Assembly: GCA_017620335.1 (NCBI GenBank) | Contig: JAFZQO010000039.1 | Span: 1-54,988, forward strand | Direction: 5' to 3' | Source: Bacteroidales bacterium | GTDB taxonomy: Bacteria; Bacteroidota; Bacteroidia; Bacteroidales; UBA932 | DNA length: 54,988 bases | Part shown: piece by piece, positions 22,157 through 27,130 of the stretch | Position numbering within the stretch: position 1 is the stretch's first letter | Layout: each line of letters begins with the position of its first letter | The notes under the pieces: model-generated | What the model saw: only the letters and a program-made list of their open reading frames with translations | What the model was told of the DNA's origin: nothing | Database searches by the model: none | Position numbers and translations under genes: made by a program

Positions 22157-23611
22157 CTATCCCTTGATGATTCCTTCTGCTATGCCTATGACCCTCCGCG
22201 CCAGCTCCTCGGCCTCCTCCTGGGTAGGGGCCTCGGCGTAGATGCGGATAATGGGCTCTGTATTGGACCTGCGGAGATGCACCCAGCGGCGCTCGGCCTC
22301 AAAGTCGATCTTGACCCCGTCGATGTCGTTGATGCGCTCGTCTTTGAAAACCACCTTCATCTCGGAGAGGATGCGGTCTATGAGGGCATTGTCGGAGAGC
22401 TCTATCTTGTTCTTTGCGATGAAGTACTGCGGGTAGGTGGCTTTCAACTCGCTGACTTTCATTTGCTTGTAAGCAAGGTTGCTGAGGAAGAGGCCCACGC
22501 CTACCATGGCGTCGCGGCCGAAGTGGCTGGCAGGGTAGATAACTCCGCCGTTGCCTTCGCCGCCTATCAGGGCGCAGGTCTCATGCATCTTGGTGGTGAC
22601 GTTGACCTCGCCCACGGCAGCAGCCTCATAGCGGCCTCCGTGCAGTTCGGCGACATCGCGGAGGGCCCGGGAGGATGAGAGGTTGGAGACCGCGACCGGC
22701 TTGTACGGGGCCGTCGCCTCCTCAAGGGTAATACCCTGGACCTCGGCCAGTTTCGCGGCCTTGGCAAAGAGATATTCGGCAACGCTTACAAGCGTATATT
22801 CTTCCACGAAGGGCTCGCCGTTCTCGCAGATGAAGGCGAGGCGGTCTACGTCGGGATCGACCGATATTCCCAGGTCGGCATGTTCGCGGACGACGGTCTC
22901 GCTCAGTTCGCGCAGGTTGGCCGGGAGAGGCTCGGGGTTATGGGCGAAATTGCCGTCCGGCGTGCCGTTGACCATGATGCACTCGACTCCCAGGCGCTCG
23001 AGCAGGCGCGGCATGATGATGGCGCCTACGGAATTGACGGGGTCGAGCACAACCTTGAAATGGGCGTTCCTGACGGCCTCCTCGTCCACGGCCTTAAGGT
23101 CGATGACGGCCTGGATGTGCTCGTCGGTGAAATCATGCTCGGTGACATGCCCGAGTCCGTCGACGGACGCGAAGTCGAACTCCCCGCTTTCGGCGCAGTC
23201 GAGGATGGCCTGCCCTTCGGCCGCATTGAGGAACTCTCCCTTCTCGTTAAGGAGCTTGAGGGCATTCCACTGGCGGGGGTTGTGCGAGGCGGTGAGGATG
23301 ATGCCGCCGTCCGCCTTAGCGAGGACGACCGCCATCTCGGTGGTCGGGGTGGAGGCGAATCCGGCCTTGACGACGTCCACGCCGCATGCGACGAGGGTGC
23401 CGCAGACGAGCTGCTCCACCATTTCTCCGCTCAGGCGGGCGTCCTTGCCGACGACGACCCTGTAGGGGGCCCCGTCGGCATGGGGCCTGCGCTCGCGCAA
23501 CTTGGCGCAGTAGGCGTAGGTGAACTTGACGATGTCGATGGGGGTGAGGCCTTCACCCACGGGACCTCCGATGGTGCCCCGGATACCCGATATGGATTTG
23601 ATAAGTGACAT
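22157..23611 (-). CDS. glmM: Phosphoglucosamine mutase / phosphomannomutase family enzyme
   Basis: This alpha-D-phosphohexomutase of 484 residues carries the phosphoserine loop TASHNP, the metal loop DPDVDR and the sugar loop GEGNGGV. The phosphate-binding motif RRSNTEPIIRIY is near the end, so all four domains are present. I start it at ATG 23611 (MSLIKSISGIRGTIGG). Upstream in-frame codons overlap the promoter region. The likely reaction is glucosamine-6-P to glucosamine-1-P for wall synthesis, but phosphomannomutase activity cannot be excluded. The symbol is therefore tentative. The DUF1343 gene follows by three bases. Confidence 0.82.
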   Translation of the reverse strand: MSLIKSISGIRGTIGGPVGEGLTPIDIVKFTYAYCAKLRERRPHADGAPYRVVVGKDARLSGEMVEQLVCGTLVACGVDVVKAGFASTPTTEMAVVLAKADGGIILTASHNPRQWNALKLLNEKGEFLNAAEGQAILDCAESGEFDFASVDGLGHVTEHDFTDEHIQAVIDLKAVDEEAVRNAHFKVVLDPVNSVGAIIMPRLLERLGVECIMVNGTPDGNFAHNPEPLPANLRELSETVVREHADLGISVDPDVDRLAFICENGEPFVEEYTLVSVAEYLFAKAAKLAEVQGITLEEATAPYKPVAVSNLSSSRALRDVAELHGGRYEAAAVGEVNVTTKMHETCALIGGEGNGGVIYPASHFGRDAMVGVGLFLSNLAYKQMKVSELKATYPQYFIAKNKIELSDNALIDRILSEMKVVFKDERINDIDGVKIDFEAERRWVHLRRSNTEPIIRIYAEAPTQEEAEELARRVIGIAEGIIKG

Positions 23612-23631
23612 AATATCTTGTATATGGATTG

Positions 23632-23639
23632 CAAATATA
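23632..23639 (-). promoter_or_regulatory. -7 element ahead of the phosphohexomutase gene
   Basis: TATATTTG on the minus strand lies 20 bases upstream of the ATG at 23611. It is divergent from the tRNA-Glu promoter about 50 bases away. The -33 region is poor. Confidence 0.5.
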
Positions 23640-23689
23640 CTGATTTTCGGCCCCTGTCGGAAATTTTTCATGGGTGAATGCAGAAAAAA

Positions 23690-23866: not shown

Positions 23867-24451
23867 ATGAAGAAGTTCGTCCTTTTCGCAGCCCTTTTGT
23901 CCCTATTCGCATCCTGCAGCTCCGGGGTCCCTGATCCCGTGCACGAGGCCATTAAGGGAGAGATCATGGGCAACATGTCACAGGAATTCTCCAGCGTTTC
24001 CATCAATTCCGTGGAGAAGATCGATTCCACCACGTTCAGGCAGGAGCTGGAACGCCGCAAGAATGTCTTCACCACGAAAAGGGACGCCGACAGCGACTTC
24101 CTTCTCAAGTACATGACCGAAGGGAAGAAGCGCAACGCCGCCCTCAAGTCCGAAAGTTACAAGAGGGACCTGGTCATCCTCCAGGGCCTTGACAGCCTGG
24201 AAGAGGTACATGCCGCCATCCTTGACGACATCGCCTATTACGACTACCGTTTCAGCGCCGAGGCGAAGGGAGAGGGACTGAAGATGCAGTTCCGCGACGC
24301 ATATATTTCCATCACCCCGGACGGAAGGGTGATCAGCATGACCGCCGAGAGGCGTGACCTGCACAAGAGCGCCGGCCGCGTCATTCCCGGCTATCTGGAA
24401 CTCGTCAAAGGTGCGGACGATGATGATGAGATGACGGACGTCATCCTCTAG
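23867..24451 (+). CDS. Small lipoprotein of unknown function
   Basis: The 194-residue protein begins MKKFVLFAALLSLFASCSSG, a clear lipoprotein signal with the lipid cysteine near residue 17. The remainder is charged and mostly helical, with no motif I recognise; blocks such as QGLDSLEEVHAAILDDIAYYDYRF and DAYISITPDGRVISM can be seen. The ATG at 23867 was chosen over an upstream one because only it gives the signal peptide at the N-terminus. The last four bases overlap the convergent PriA-like gene. It follows the tRNA-Glu terminator, and no strong promoter of its own is evident. Confidence 0.7.
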   Translation: MKKFVLFAALLSLFASCSSGVPDPVHEAIKGEIMGNMSQEFSSVSINSVEKIDSTTFRQELERRKNVFTTKRDADSDFLLKYMTEGKKRNAALKSESYKRDLVILQGLDSLEEVHAAILDDIAYYDYRFSAEAKGEGLKMQFRDAYISITPDGRVISMTAERRDLHKSAGRVIPGYLELVKGADDDDEMTDVIL

Positions 24452-26373
24452 AGCGGGTCCACGTCGAGCGTGACGTGCCCTGTGTACTTGCAGGACTTCT
24501 CGAAATCGCCGATGACCGCGGCGATTTTTCTTTTTGTTTCCGGTAAATGCCTGTTCCTGGGGAGCATGATGCGGATTATCCTGGCATCCTGCTCGGGCTC
24601 GCGTCCTCGGAACGGCGCGAACGGGCCTTCGGGATTGAATTCTCTCAAGGAATGGGCGAGCATAGCCGACAGTTTGGACAAACGTGCCGCGTTGCCGTCC
24701 CTCACGATTATGTCGATCATCCTGGAATATGGTGGAAAACGGAACGCCTTGCGCTCCTTCAGGAGCCTCAGCGCATAATCATCGCCCATCAGATATACGG
24801 GGTGTTCTCCCTGGCGGGTCTGGACGAGCATCTGCCCGGACAGTCTCCCGCGGAACTGCTCTAGGGTCTGGACAGCCTTCTCGTCGGCCCGGAAATCATG
24901 CTTGTCCATCAGCGTGTCGGCATTGAGCAGAGCCAGGAGGGAGATTCCTTCCAGGTCGGTCCTCCGGGCTTCGTGGACGGTGGAGAAACGGATGCCGCCG
25001 TCCCTGCCGGGGAACAGTTTTCCGACCTGTTCCTTCAGGTCGTCGAAAGGCCCCCAAGGCCTCAGGACCAGTACTTTCCCGTCATTGTCGAGCGTGTATC
25101 CGATACGGGCGATCAGGATGCGGGACAGGTCCCCGACCATGCCGTTCTTCCTTGCCTCGACGGAGGTGTCCACAATCTCCATCGCGCTCTCTTCCAGCGG
25201 TGTGCGGACGAGGGCGTAGCGTCCCGTGATGCAGTTGTACAGGGACTCCAGGGATGGGGTGGGGGAGGAAAGGAGCACGTGCGCCCCATGGATGTTTCCG
25301 AGCATGACGGCTGTGTCGCGGGCCCCGTAGCGCGGAGTCCCGTCCTGCTTGTAGGCGATGTCATGCTCTTCCTCGACTATGACAAGGCCAAGGTTCCGGA
25401 AAGGCAGGAAGAGGGCCGAGCGGGTCCCGAGGACCAGCCACGGCCTGTCGCCCCTCCTCAGGGCAGTGGCGACTTCCCGGCGGTTCCCGGCCGTCTCGGC
25501 GGAATGGAACACCGTCACGGCTTCGCCGAAAGCCTCCCTGAGGGTATGCTGCAGCTGTCTGCTCAACGTGATCTCAGGAACAAGCATCAGAACGTCTCGC
25601 CCTGACTCCAGAGTTCTCCGCGCTGTCTCCAGGATGACTTCCAGGCGCATCTTTCCACCTTGGAGCAGCACGGTCTTTCCTTCGGTAAACGCTTTCTTCA
25701 CCTGGCCGGCTGTTTCCCCTGTCATTCCGGGTGAAGCGAAGGAATCTGGATCCCTTCGTCGCCCTTCGGTCTCCTCGGGATGACAGGCGTTTGTCATTCC
25801 GGTTGGAGCGGAGGAATCCGCTTCCTTCCCCAGCGCTTCCAGCTTCCTCCCGGCTTCCTTCAGTTCGGCGAGGATCCTGTCCCTTCCCGCCTCGAGCTCC
25901 GCCGTAACCTTGGCGTTGTGCCTTCCCGCAAGGGCGGCTTCCTTCTTCACCAGCCTTTCCTCCAGGCTCCGGATGCGTTTACGGTAGAGCTCCTCCGTCC
26001 TGGCCTTCATGAGCTCCTGCCTCTCCTCGGCCCTTGCCCGGACCTCCTCGCCCGCGGTCTTGACCGCTGGATAGGCCTGCTTGTACACTTCGCCTATGGT
26101 GCAGAGATAGTAATCCGCCATGAAACGCCAAAGGGCCAGTTCCTTCTCTCCGATGGGTTCCATGTGCCTTTCCACAGCGTTGACGGGGAGGATGCGTCCC
26201 GGGTCCATGTCCGGGGTCACCCCGGTTGCGCTGACCACGCCGGTATACTTCCTGCCGGCAAATGTGACGCTGACGCGCGTACCTGTCCGGACCTCCTCCG
26301 AGACCCGGTAACAGGGCTCCCACGCCAGTTTCAGCGGGAGTATGACCTTTATGTAGCGATCCTCATCCATCAT
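24448..26373 (-). CDS. priA: PriA-like protein with degenerate helicase motifs and no zinc cluster
   Basis: The 641-residue protein aligns by eye to primosomal helicase PriA: N-terminal 3'-DNA-binding domain (about 1-105, WRFMADYYLCTIGEVYKQAYP), a helical linker, and a helicase core with LMLVPEITLSRQLQ and GTRSALFLPF. Key residues are lost. The Walker A GxTGSGKT is reduced to LLQGGKMRLEV (about 236-246), motif II DEEH is EEEH (334-337), motif III SATPS is SPTPS, and motif VI is GRLSGQ. No CxxC zinc pairs occur before the C-terminal domain, which explains the 150-200 residue deficit against usual PriA. Residues 187-218 are encoded by a dispersed repeat. The frame is intact. Confidence 0.75.
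   Translation of the reverse strand: MMDEDRYIKVILPLKLAWEPCYRVSEEVRTGTRVSVTFAGRKYTGVVSATGVTPDMDPGRILPVNAVERHMEPIGEKELALWRFMADYYLCTIGEVYKQAYPAVKTAGEEVRARAEERQELMKARTEELYRKRIRSLEERLVKKEAALAGRHNAKVTAELEAGRDRILAELKEAGRKLEALGKEADSSAPTGMTNACHPEETEGRRRDPDSFASPGMTGETAGQVKKAFTEGKTVLLQGGKMRLEVILETARRTLESGRDVLMLVPEITLSRQLQHTLREAFGEAVTVFHSAETAGNRREVATALRRGDRPWLVLGTRSALFLPFRNLGLVIVEEEHDIAYKQDGTPRYGARDTAVMLGNIHGAHVLLSSPTPSLESLYNCITGRYALVRTPLEESAMEIVDTSVEARKNGMVGDLSRILIARIGYTLDNDGKVLVLRPWGPFDDLKEQVGKLFPGRDGGIRFSTVHEARRTDLEGISLLALLNADTLMDKHDFRADEKAVQTLEQFRGRLSGQMLVQTRQGEHPVYLMGDDYALRLLKERKAFRFPPYSRMIDIIVRDGNAARLSKLSAMLAHSLREFNPEGPFAPFRGREPEQDARIIRIMLPRNRHLPETKRKIAAVIGDFEKSCKYTGHVTLDVDPL
25720..25747 (-). repeat. 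Dispersed 28-base repeat, copy 2 (translated within the PriA-like gene)
   Basis: On the minus strand the unit begins AGATTCCTTCGCTTCA and ends CGGAATGACA, differing from copy 1 at two bases. With flanking bases up to 25785 it makes a longer element whose ends are inverted (CTGTCATCCC against CGGAATGACAG). It is read in frame as part of DSFASPGMT. Confidence 0.8.
25721..25818 (-). repeat. Compound REP-like element inside the PriA-like coding sequence
   Basis: Three arms are visible: GTCATTCC at 25721, GGGATGAC ending at 25784 in inverted orientation, and a diverged GTCATTCC at 25793-25800. Together they encode residues about 186-218, including CHPEETEGRRRDP. This lies in the linker between the DNA-binding and helicase parts, where an insertion is tolerable. 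Confidence 0.7.
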
Positions 26374-26387
26374 ATGCGAAGATAACG

Positions 26388-26425
26388 AAAAAAGTGCATC
26401 CCCCGGCAGGGAGATGCACTTTTTT
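26388..26425 (-). terminator. Terminator of the OmpA-type lipoprotein gene
   Basis: AAAAAAGTGCATC (26388-26400) pairs with GATGCACTTTTTT (26413-26425) over a 12-base loop, giving T-runs in both directions. It lies 15 bases after the gene's stop on the minus strand. Confidence 0.85.
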
Positions 26426-26440
26426 GAGAGTGCAATGCGA

Positions 26441-27130
26441 TTACTGGGCCTTGGCTTCAGCCTCGGCCTGCTTGATCATGTTCTCGTTGGCGGAGATGTA
26501 CACCTCGACGCGGCGGTTCTGGGCGCGGCCCTCGGCGGTCTCGTTCGAAGCGACAGGCATGTGATAGGACATACCCTCGGAAGTCATTCTGTCGGCAGCG
26601 ATACCGCAGGACTTCAGGTAGTTGAGGACGGACTCGGCACGCTGCTTGGAGAGGCGCTCGTTGACAGCGTCGCTGCCGGTGTTGTCAGTGTGGCCGTAGA
26701 TGGTGATGTCGGTCTCGGGGAGGTCGGCCATCTGGGCGGCGAACCTCGAGAGGTTGGCCTTCGATTCAGCGTTCAGGTCTGCCTTGTTGAGTGCGAAGAG
26801 GATACCGCTGTCGAAGGTGACCTTGATGGCCTCAAGTCCGTTGGCATCCTCGACGGTCTCGACGGTCGCGGCCTCGAGGGCTGCGAGCTCGGCTGCCTTC
26901 TGGTCCATCTTCTTGCCGATGATGGCGCCGGCGGTGGCACCGACTGCAGAACCAATGGCTGCGCCGATGGCTGCGGCTTTACCGTCCTTGCCTATGAGTG
27001 CGCCCACGCCAGCACCGACGGCTGCGCCGGCACCGGTGCCAATCAGGGAATCCTGGGCCATCTTGGACATGGAGCCGCATCCGGAGAGGATCATGACTCC
27101 GCAAAGGAAGAGTGCAATGTACTTTTTCAT
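26441..27130 (-). CDS. OmpA-family peptidoglycan-binding lipoprotein with glycine zipper
   Basis: This 229-residue outer-membrane lipoprotein has a lipobox LSGC near residue 18. It is followed by a Gly/Ala-rich glycine-zipper stretch (about 30-72, GAGVGALIGK and IGSAVGATAGAIIG). The OmpA C-terminal domain contains VTFDSGILFALNKADL and HTDNTGSDAVNERLSKQRAESV, then EGRAQNRRVEVYI. This domain binds diaminopimelate in peptidoglycan and tethers the outer membrane. It is preceded by an AT-rich 170-base region without a consensus -7 element I can defend, and ends in a strong terminator, so it is probably monocistronic. Confidence 0.9.
   Translation of the reverse strand: MKKYIALFLCGVMILSGCGSMSKMAQDSLIGTGAGAAVGAGVGALIGKDGKAAAIGAAIGSAVGATAGAIIGKKMDQKAAELAALEAATVETVEDANGLEAIKVTFDSGILFALNKADLNAESKANLSRFAAQMADLPETDITIYGHTDNTGSDAVNERLSKQRAESVLNYLKSCGIAADRMTSEGMSYHMPVASNETAEGRAQNRRVEVYISANENMIKQAEAEAKAQ

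Follow-up and report, generated by a model that had tools for sequence, protein, structure and literature searches.

Whether replication restart requires the helicase and the zinc region of PriA is a question debated largely on the basis of E. coli mutants. The window, meaning the whole stretch of 54,988 nucleotides analyzed here, carries a priA gene with an intact frame from which both are missing, raising the question of whether its product is still the cell's working PriA, has been turned to another use or is a remnant on its way out.

The priA gene of the window

The gene lies on the minus strand, running from 26373 down to 24448, and encodes a protein of 641 aa with an ATG start. The frame begins ATG ATG, directly after a terminator-like hairpin. 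By its sequence matches it is a PriA homologue, in keeping with the preliminary description, which had read it as an intact PriA-like frame: NCBIfam NF004067 matches with an E-value of 2.1e-75, under that model's own cut-off, and PriA chains among the PDB sequences match with a best E of 6.8e-38, with the alignment to one such chain, 4nl4, spanning both halves of the protein (residues 12-436 and 465-564). TIGR00595 scored 204.7 bits against a curated cut-off of 230.35, which is therefore not reached. In Pfam the N-terminal 3′-binding domain was found (PF17764, E 5.8e-17, 61.8 bits against a cut-off of 22.7) and DEAD was marginal (26.1 bits, cut-off 26), while neither the zinc region nor Helicase_C nor the C-terminal domain of PriA was detected in the window protein. 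The same scan showed all of these in the intact relatives L079, L014 and L040. The features of the gene are as follows.

24448..26373, minus strand: degenerate priA, complete frame including the stop, 641 aa (NCBIfam and PDB sequence matches)
26068..26349, minus strand: 3′-binding domain, residues 9-102, kept (PF17764, E 5.8e-17; single copy found in the genome; dN/dS 0.09 in three degenerate pairs)
25711..25818, minus strand: in-frame 108-bp linker stretch, residues 186-221, containing a piece of a dispersed repeat (34 further partial matches in its own genome, each about 27-45 bp long)
25624..25674, minus strand: former motif I (Walker A), residues 234-250, P-loop lost (at the 90% level, 0/16 columns are conserved within the degenerate clade and 10/17 across intact proteins)
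25300..25380, minus strand: what remains of motif II (EEEH) plus the YKQ...PRYGARD loop after it, both kept, residues 332-358 (alignment; dN/dS 0.06)
25243..25275, minus strand: motif III remnant LLSSPTPSLES, residues 367-377 (alignment; dN/dS 0.02 for residues 359-377)
25024..25068, minus strand: point at which the cysteine-rich region (CRR) and the greater part of the second helicase lobe are missing, residues about 436-450 (alignment)
24838..24933, minus strand: DFRADE(K/R) segment, a kept part of helicase lobe 2, residues 481-512, with motif VI truncated at the segment end (alignment, conservation, dN/dS)
24451..24837, minus strand: QT..HPVY..ER..FPPYSR segment together with what is left of the C-terminal domain, whose last residues are DVDPL, residues 513-641 (alignment; PF18074 undetected)

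Motifs and domains lost and kept

Motif I of the window protein reads VLLQG--GKMRLEVI where the intact L079 has VLLHGVTGSGKTEIY, such that the VTGSGKTEIY of relatives has become --GKMRLEVI and the Walker A pattern GxTGSGKTE is absent. Motif II is EEEH as against DEEH in relatives and motif III is SSPTPS as against GSATPS, while in the alignment with relatives motif V has no recognizable counterpart and motif VI is shortened to RGRL from RGRCGR, motifs V and VI with the arginine finger being absent as such. The CRR block is deleted, leaving no cysteine there, whereas each of the 28 intact rows of the same genus (g1) has 8 or 9, and most of the second helicase lobe is absent from the alignment along with it. 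Likewise PF18319, the eight-cysteine zinc region, was found in L079, L014 and L040 but not here. The loop after motif II is kept, and we take it to be the counterpart of the aromatic-rich loop of E. coli PriA.

The preliminary description had listed deviations in Walker A and in motifs II, III and VI, the lack of CxxC zinc pairs and a recognizable N-terminal DNA-binding domain, all of which were borne out by the alignment and the profile searches. As for its further claim of a recognizable C-terminal domain, by alignment the protein from about residue 454-472 onward shares 38-50% identity with intact relatives of the genus, but PF18074, the model of that domain, was undetected at E 0.01. The same model was undetected in five of the seven CRR-less proteins scanned, being found in L096 and falling under its cut-off in L106.

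Spread of the degenerate form

Within the genus, 54 of 61 genomes match the window PriA, and 53 of these loci were classed, a contig-end fragment in G022 being left out. Of these 28 are intact, with 8 or 9 cysteines in the CRR block (two of the 28 being fragments), and 25 are degenerate, with none in 24 and one in the other. The degenerate frames are open in all 25, one being cut by a contig end. One locus classed as degenerate (L028, in G054) keeps GSGKTE, and in another (L036) the contig does not cover the P-loop region. A further 17 degenerate loci, also with open frames, were read from four other genera of the family (g12, 3; g13, 1; g18, 2; g22, 11), among them that of G072, which keeps GEPASGKS and GRAGR with the CRR lost. 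Outside these 17, G077 and G114 (g18) are CRR-less by match pattern. As such the degenerate form is not the decay of a single strain.

At the family level the PriA cut-off was passed by 123 of 149 genomes, the 26 below it comprising 15 read as degenerate, a contig-end piece in G179 and ten without a PriA match. Across the order 192 of 198 genomes passed, the other six being the window's own, G369 and four without a match. Passing TIGR00595 is not the same as having an intact motor, with G284 and L198 passing without Walker A and G072, G096 and G128 without the CRR, such that the family and order counts only bound the number of degenerate genes. In genus g103 of family f79, G284 (L269) passes and G369 (L270) fails, both having lost Walker A and kept the eight-cysteine region. 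Among 80 named loci from a profile of the degenerate protein, three from Bacteroidales (L170, L171, L186) and one from a MAG labelled Omnitrophica (L198, over the TIGR00595 cut-off at 308.9 bits) deviate, having no P-loop pattern, CxxC pairs or motif VI pattern. The reduced PriA seems to be concentrated in the window's family, the order-level genomes having been judged by score and not by motifs.

Copy number and partner genes

The genome that holds the window is a draft of 2.76 Mb in 54 contigs, 96.6% complete. The preliminary description had proposed looking there for a second, complete PriA or a DnaC/DnaI-like loader. No second PriA was found by TIGR00595 in this 96.6% complete genome, the other matches falling in RecG (C36), Mfd (C7) and UvrB (C45), and PF17764 gave one match, with no second 3′-binding-domain protein found. 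No DnaC/DnaI-like loader was found over the PF01695 cut-off, the sole match there being DnaA, with four weaker matches below it. In each of the 25 degenerate genomes of the genus the matches lie at one locus.

RecG is over its cut-off in the window's genome and in 65 of 75 genomes. The ten without full RecG include both kinds of PriA: only Mfd-type matches were found in G010, G014 and G024 (intact PriA) and G175 (degenerate), the search was empty in G049 (intact) and G051 (degenerate), and RecG is partial in G020 (intact) and in G001, G011 and G117 (degenerate). DciA is present in 52 of the 52 genomes given, in one of them below the Pfam cut-off. Neither covaries with the degenerate state, so neither gives a positive sign of compensation, and both were set aside as compensating partners. 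A search for PriB gave no match in 11 of 11 genomes, with the control search over its cut-off in 1 of 14 control genomes.

Segments under selection

The preliminary description had also suggested aligning homologues and testing dN/dS. Values were calculated pairwise (NG86) for pairs sharing the degenerate state, with regional values taken from 48-320 codons per region such that single values are rough. In three pairs from the window's clade (G011 being assigned to this clade by the PriA tree only) dN/dS was highest at motif I (0.36), followed by the junction (0.24), the C-terminal domain (0.19), the linker (0.18), the lobe-2 remnant and the QT-PP segment (both 0.16) and the rest of lobe 1 (0.13), and lowest at the 3′-binding domain and DFRADER (both 0.09), motif II plus loop (0.06) and motif III (0.02). 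In three g12 and g22 pairs the linker was highest (0.40) with motif I at 0.20, and motif II plus loop (0.07), DFRADER (0.09) and the 3′-binding domain (0.11) were again low.

Column conservation at 90%, taken over 17 degenerate and 26 intact rows, agrees in the main with these values. No column is conserved in motif I (0/16, intact 10/17) or in the lobe-2 remnant (0/38) of the degenerate rows, while the 3′-binding domain keeps 21/97 (intact 26/95) and the motif II-III stretch 7/22 (intact 8/22), with reduced conservation in DFRADER (7/31, intact 16/32) and motif II (3/13, intact 9/13). The 3′-binding domain, the surroundings of motifs II-III, DFRADER and the C-terminal parts are thus under purifying selection in related degenerate pairs.

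Proposed function

The reading preferred here, put at a probability of about 0.6 on sequence comparison, is that the window gene still supplies the PriA that the cell works with, in a reduced form that binds forks independently of ATP and serves as a platform from which DnaB is reloaded. Such a protein would recognize an abandoned fork via the 3′-binding domain and the first lobe, would not unwind the lagging strand and would present what is left of its lobe-2/C-terminal face to the machinery that loads DnaB, probably DnaB together with DciA. With the CRR gone, nothing would close off the partner site on lobe 2 and the C-terminal domain at any stage, and any unwinding needed could come from other helicases such as RecG, present in the same genome.

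An ungated, ATP-free platform is suggested by a precedent, by the role of the CRR in E. coli, by the lack of a PriB match and by DciA in 52/52 genomes. In Deinococcus radiodurans, PriA has no ATPase activity and no unwinding activity, still binds forks and shows evidence for DnaB contact (PMC4504706). In free E. coli PriA the DnaT site on lobe 2 and the C-terminal domain lies hidden beneath the CRR, which has to shift when a fork is bound (PMC13377028), and the partner face proposed here is modelled on that DnaT site by analogy. DciA may act with PriA, the hand-over being only suggested (PMC9825169). In the DnaB loading assay, K230A PriA served as the background (PMC10175261).

The E. coli CRR also carries the PriB site, and since a CRR triple variant loads no DnaB (PMC10175261), loss of the CRR could by analogy mean loss of restart, a concern that would be moot only if there is no PriB analogue here. 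The failure to detect PF18074 in five of seven CRR-less proteins and the reduced column conservation of DFRADER and motif II also tell against the platform. Loss of the CRR would suit a repurposed PriA, one that binds branched DNA without loading DnaB and that serves to protect forks, to regulate recombination or to compete with RecG, with restart proceeding via DnaA/DciA or another route. The E. coli need for the CRR in PriB-dependent DnaB loading (PMC10175261) and the undetected PF18074 domain speak for it; however, the DFRADER and QT-PP segments are under selection (dN/dS 0.09 and 0.16) and not obviously needed by a pure DNA binder, and no replacement PriA was found in the genome, making repurposing an unlikely reading, if one to be taken seriously. 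The ATP-independent platform remains the preferred function.

Number of losses

A RecG tree was built for 60 of the 75 genomes, the remainder having missing or partial RecG or not having been fetched. In it 17 degenerate species, that of the window included, group together as a clade (SH-aLRT 99), and G040, G019 with G028, G054 with G057, and G035 are placed elsewhere with intact species in between. Counting losses only, and taking G072 as degenerate, gives seven events on the tree as drawn and six leniently, with branches under 95 collapsed. For 20 chosen genomes (no Mfd match being listed for G040) a single clade of the ten degenerate g1 rows was rejected by Mfd (p-AU 4e-38) and by Mfd and RecG together (p-AU 2e-40); the window's group has support of 97/98 in the joint tree, but Mfd by itself does not recover it as a single group.

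The rival to repeated loss is that the degenerate gene arose once and then spread by horizontal transfer. A quick PriA tree of 70 rows places all 25 degenerate g1 rows together (SH-aLRT 90), but it carries a long-branch warning, with degenerate PriA on long branches; the fragments L085, L088 and L104 were excluded from it, as were 27 of the 30 intact loci from other genera. The 20-row PriA data also fail to reject one degenerate clade (p-AU 0.077), yet in the best tree from this more careful set G019, G028, G054 and G057 sit alongside the intact species related to them (100/98), as they do with RecG and Mfd, and the extent of the lobe-2 remnant varies by lineage, with G019, G128, G096 and G072 keeping stretches missing in the window's clade. 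On these grounds repeated loss is preferred, a single origin with transfer being improbable.

The genes flanking priA were also noted. An OmpA-like neighbor (by sequence reading, 26441-27130) adjoins degenerate priA in L010, L012, L013, L073 and L077, all members of the window's clade, and relatives of a phosphoglucomutase-like gene (by sequence reading, 22157-23671) lie near priA in L010, L038, L070 and L170. Neighbors of these two kinds were not found beside intact priA in the 73 loci compared, many of which have short flanks. The argument from descent rests on the RecG and Mfd trees and not on synteny.

Motor and CRR were thus probably lost several times over in the family. In G054 and G072 the gate (the CRR) appears to have gone first, since the CRR is missing and the P-loop still present, while in f79 the order is the reverse, with Walker A lost and the CRR kept. 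This recurrence within the family, with an order differing between lineages, is absent from the preliminary description. A wider reading, tentative and held somewhat below even odds, is that the family dropped both the PriA motor and the CRR gate again and again, on six to seven occasions by the RecG tree, to give a permanently open, ATP-free fork platform handing DnaB to DciA. If true, the family would serve as a natural deletion series from which the parts of PriA required for restart could be read off.

Persistence of the degenerate frame

Slow decay would mean that PriA is dispensable in these lineages and that the frames are remnants on their way out. Across degenerate pairs dN/dS was 0.076-0.31 at dS of 0.39-2.2: 0.076 for G023/G047, 0.144-0.163 for three g12 pairs, 0.17-0.19 for three g22 pairs, 0.24 for G008/G058 and 0.31 for both G019/G028 and G054/G057. 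Because the pair with the window gene itself (G000/G030) is saturated, selection on that gene is judged from its clade. Intact PriA pairs gave 0.09-0.15 in the four with finite dS, two more being saturated, and RecG 0.02-0.12 in pairs with both loci available. The ratio of PriA to RecG dN/dS, 2.0-5.1 in six degenerate pairs, lends decay some weight, though it is 1.8-3.9 in four intact pairs; the long branches of degenerate PriA point the same way, as do eight genomes of the genus with no usable PriA or a fragment only (for example G032, 91% complete). Yet dN/dS lies far below 1 in pairs already degenerate, no internal stop occurs among the degenerate matches listed, the degenerate clade on the RecG tree spans 17 species, and in a neutral simulation 13 of 1000 frames were stop-free at 0.1 changes per site and none of 1000 at 0.2. 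Slow decay, already disfavored, is less probable still than a single origin.

The long-term selection proposed in the preliminary description, as opposed to recent decay, therefore agrees with the 17-species clade and with dN/dS of 0.08-0.31 among degenerate pairs. It had also held that close relatives with intact motifs would point to recent pseudogene formation or assembly error. Such relatives exist (28 of 53 loci of the genus), but they lie outside the window's clade on the RecG tree, which argues for old, repeated loss and not for a recent pseudogene. That a complete PriA sits in an unassembled part of the genome or that the locus is an assembly artefact is barely credible, the assembly being a 54-contig draft at 96.6% completeness but the same form recurring in 25 genomes of the genus at a single locus each.

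Comparison with known systems

The PriA helicase and zinc region have both been removed by evolution, probably several times and with particular segments kept, in wild bacteria with a DciA-type loader, and the existence of intact and degenerate sister species makes the need for these parts directly testable. Among the literature matches listed, drawn from open-licence papers, D. radiodurans provides the only PriA pseudohelicase, and repeated loss of the PriA motor and CRR was not found among them. Within these matches, then, a pseudohelicase PriA is already known from Deinococcus, and the repeated loss of the CRR besides is the new element.

The window PriA is in a broad sense such a pseudohelicase, with Walker A and B disabled in an intact frame and selection seen in related degenerate pairs. 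It is closest to D. radiodurans PriA in that Walker A/B function is lost from an intact gene across a whole lineage, with DNA binding kept there (PMC4504706) and predicted here. The two differ in extent, the Walker A lysine being replaced by arginine in D. radiodurans (PMC4504706) whereas in the window protein the P-loop is gone, the CRR and motif V are deleted and motif VI is cut; unlike the Deinococcus case, the loss also recurs within one family. The f79/g103 proteins (G284 L269, G369 L270) resemble it in having lost Walker A from an intact frame and differ in keeping the eight-cysteine region.

Among PriA models the window protein scores at best 254.6 bits on the PRK05580 set and 81.4 bits on PRK14873, which we take to be the actinobacterial PriA set. 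The actinobacterial ortholog, described as "smaller and very divergent" (PMC1193525), is similar as a reduced, divergent PriA of one lineage. With the PriA of E. coli and Klebsiella the window protein shares the 3′-binding domain, the first-lobe core and conserved C-terminal pieces, and it differs from them in that theirs has an active ATPase, a winged helix, the CRR and a full second lobe (domain list in PMC10175261).

Sequence features in and upstream of priA

Two features were recorded at the degenerate priA gene of the window:

26377-26425, minus strand, terminator-like hairpin of 17 pairs upstream of priA
25711-25818, minus strand, partial dispersed repeat lying in frame in the priA linker, identified from sequence matches across its own genome

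The hairpin is followed by TATCTTCG, located 3 bases ahead of the priA ATG, a sequence close to the Bacteroidota -7 element. This arrangement of hairpin and TATCTTCG may have arisen by chance, since the number of hairpins found (five) was not clearly above the mean of shuffled sequences (3.7). The linker repeat has 34 further partial matches scattered through the same genome, each of about 27-45 bp.

Variation and possible loss of PriA among relatives

In most intact PriA proteins of the window's genus (g1) motif VI reads GRCGR or GRSGR, with alignment rows from other genera mostly carrying GRAGR. Even in intact g1 PriA the winged-helix stretch appears, from comparison by eye of loci L014, L016 and L079 with L040, to have been swapped for a charged, coiled-coil-like or shortened linker. 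A single in-frame TAG was present in the 5′ part of an otherwise intact-type priA (G049:C180:277-699). For the intact pair of genomes G029 and G053, dS was 1.09 for PriA versus 0.16 for RecG, a mismatch that hints at recombination or replacement of either priA or recG.

The search for PriA in seven Bacteroidales genomes that are 91-95% complete (G221, G236, G298, G371, G032, G069 and G135) returned only Mfd/RecG-like matches or nothing; PriA is either absent from these genomes or unassembled.

Two proteins lacking the cysteine-rich region have a P-loop, GSGKTE in L028 (genome G054, within g1) and GEPASGKS in L106 (G072, outside g1), and are possible intermediates in which the cysteine-rich region was lost first. 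In genus g103 of a second Bacteroidales family (f79), PriA from L269 (G284) and L270 (G369) has no Walker A motif and keeps an eight-cysteine region. Further afield, a metagenome-assembled genome labelled Candidatus Omnitrophica encodes a PriA (L198:2926-4542) missing the same parts as the window protein, namely the P-loop and cysteine-rich region, and retaining similar ones.
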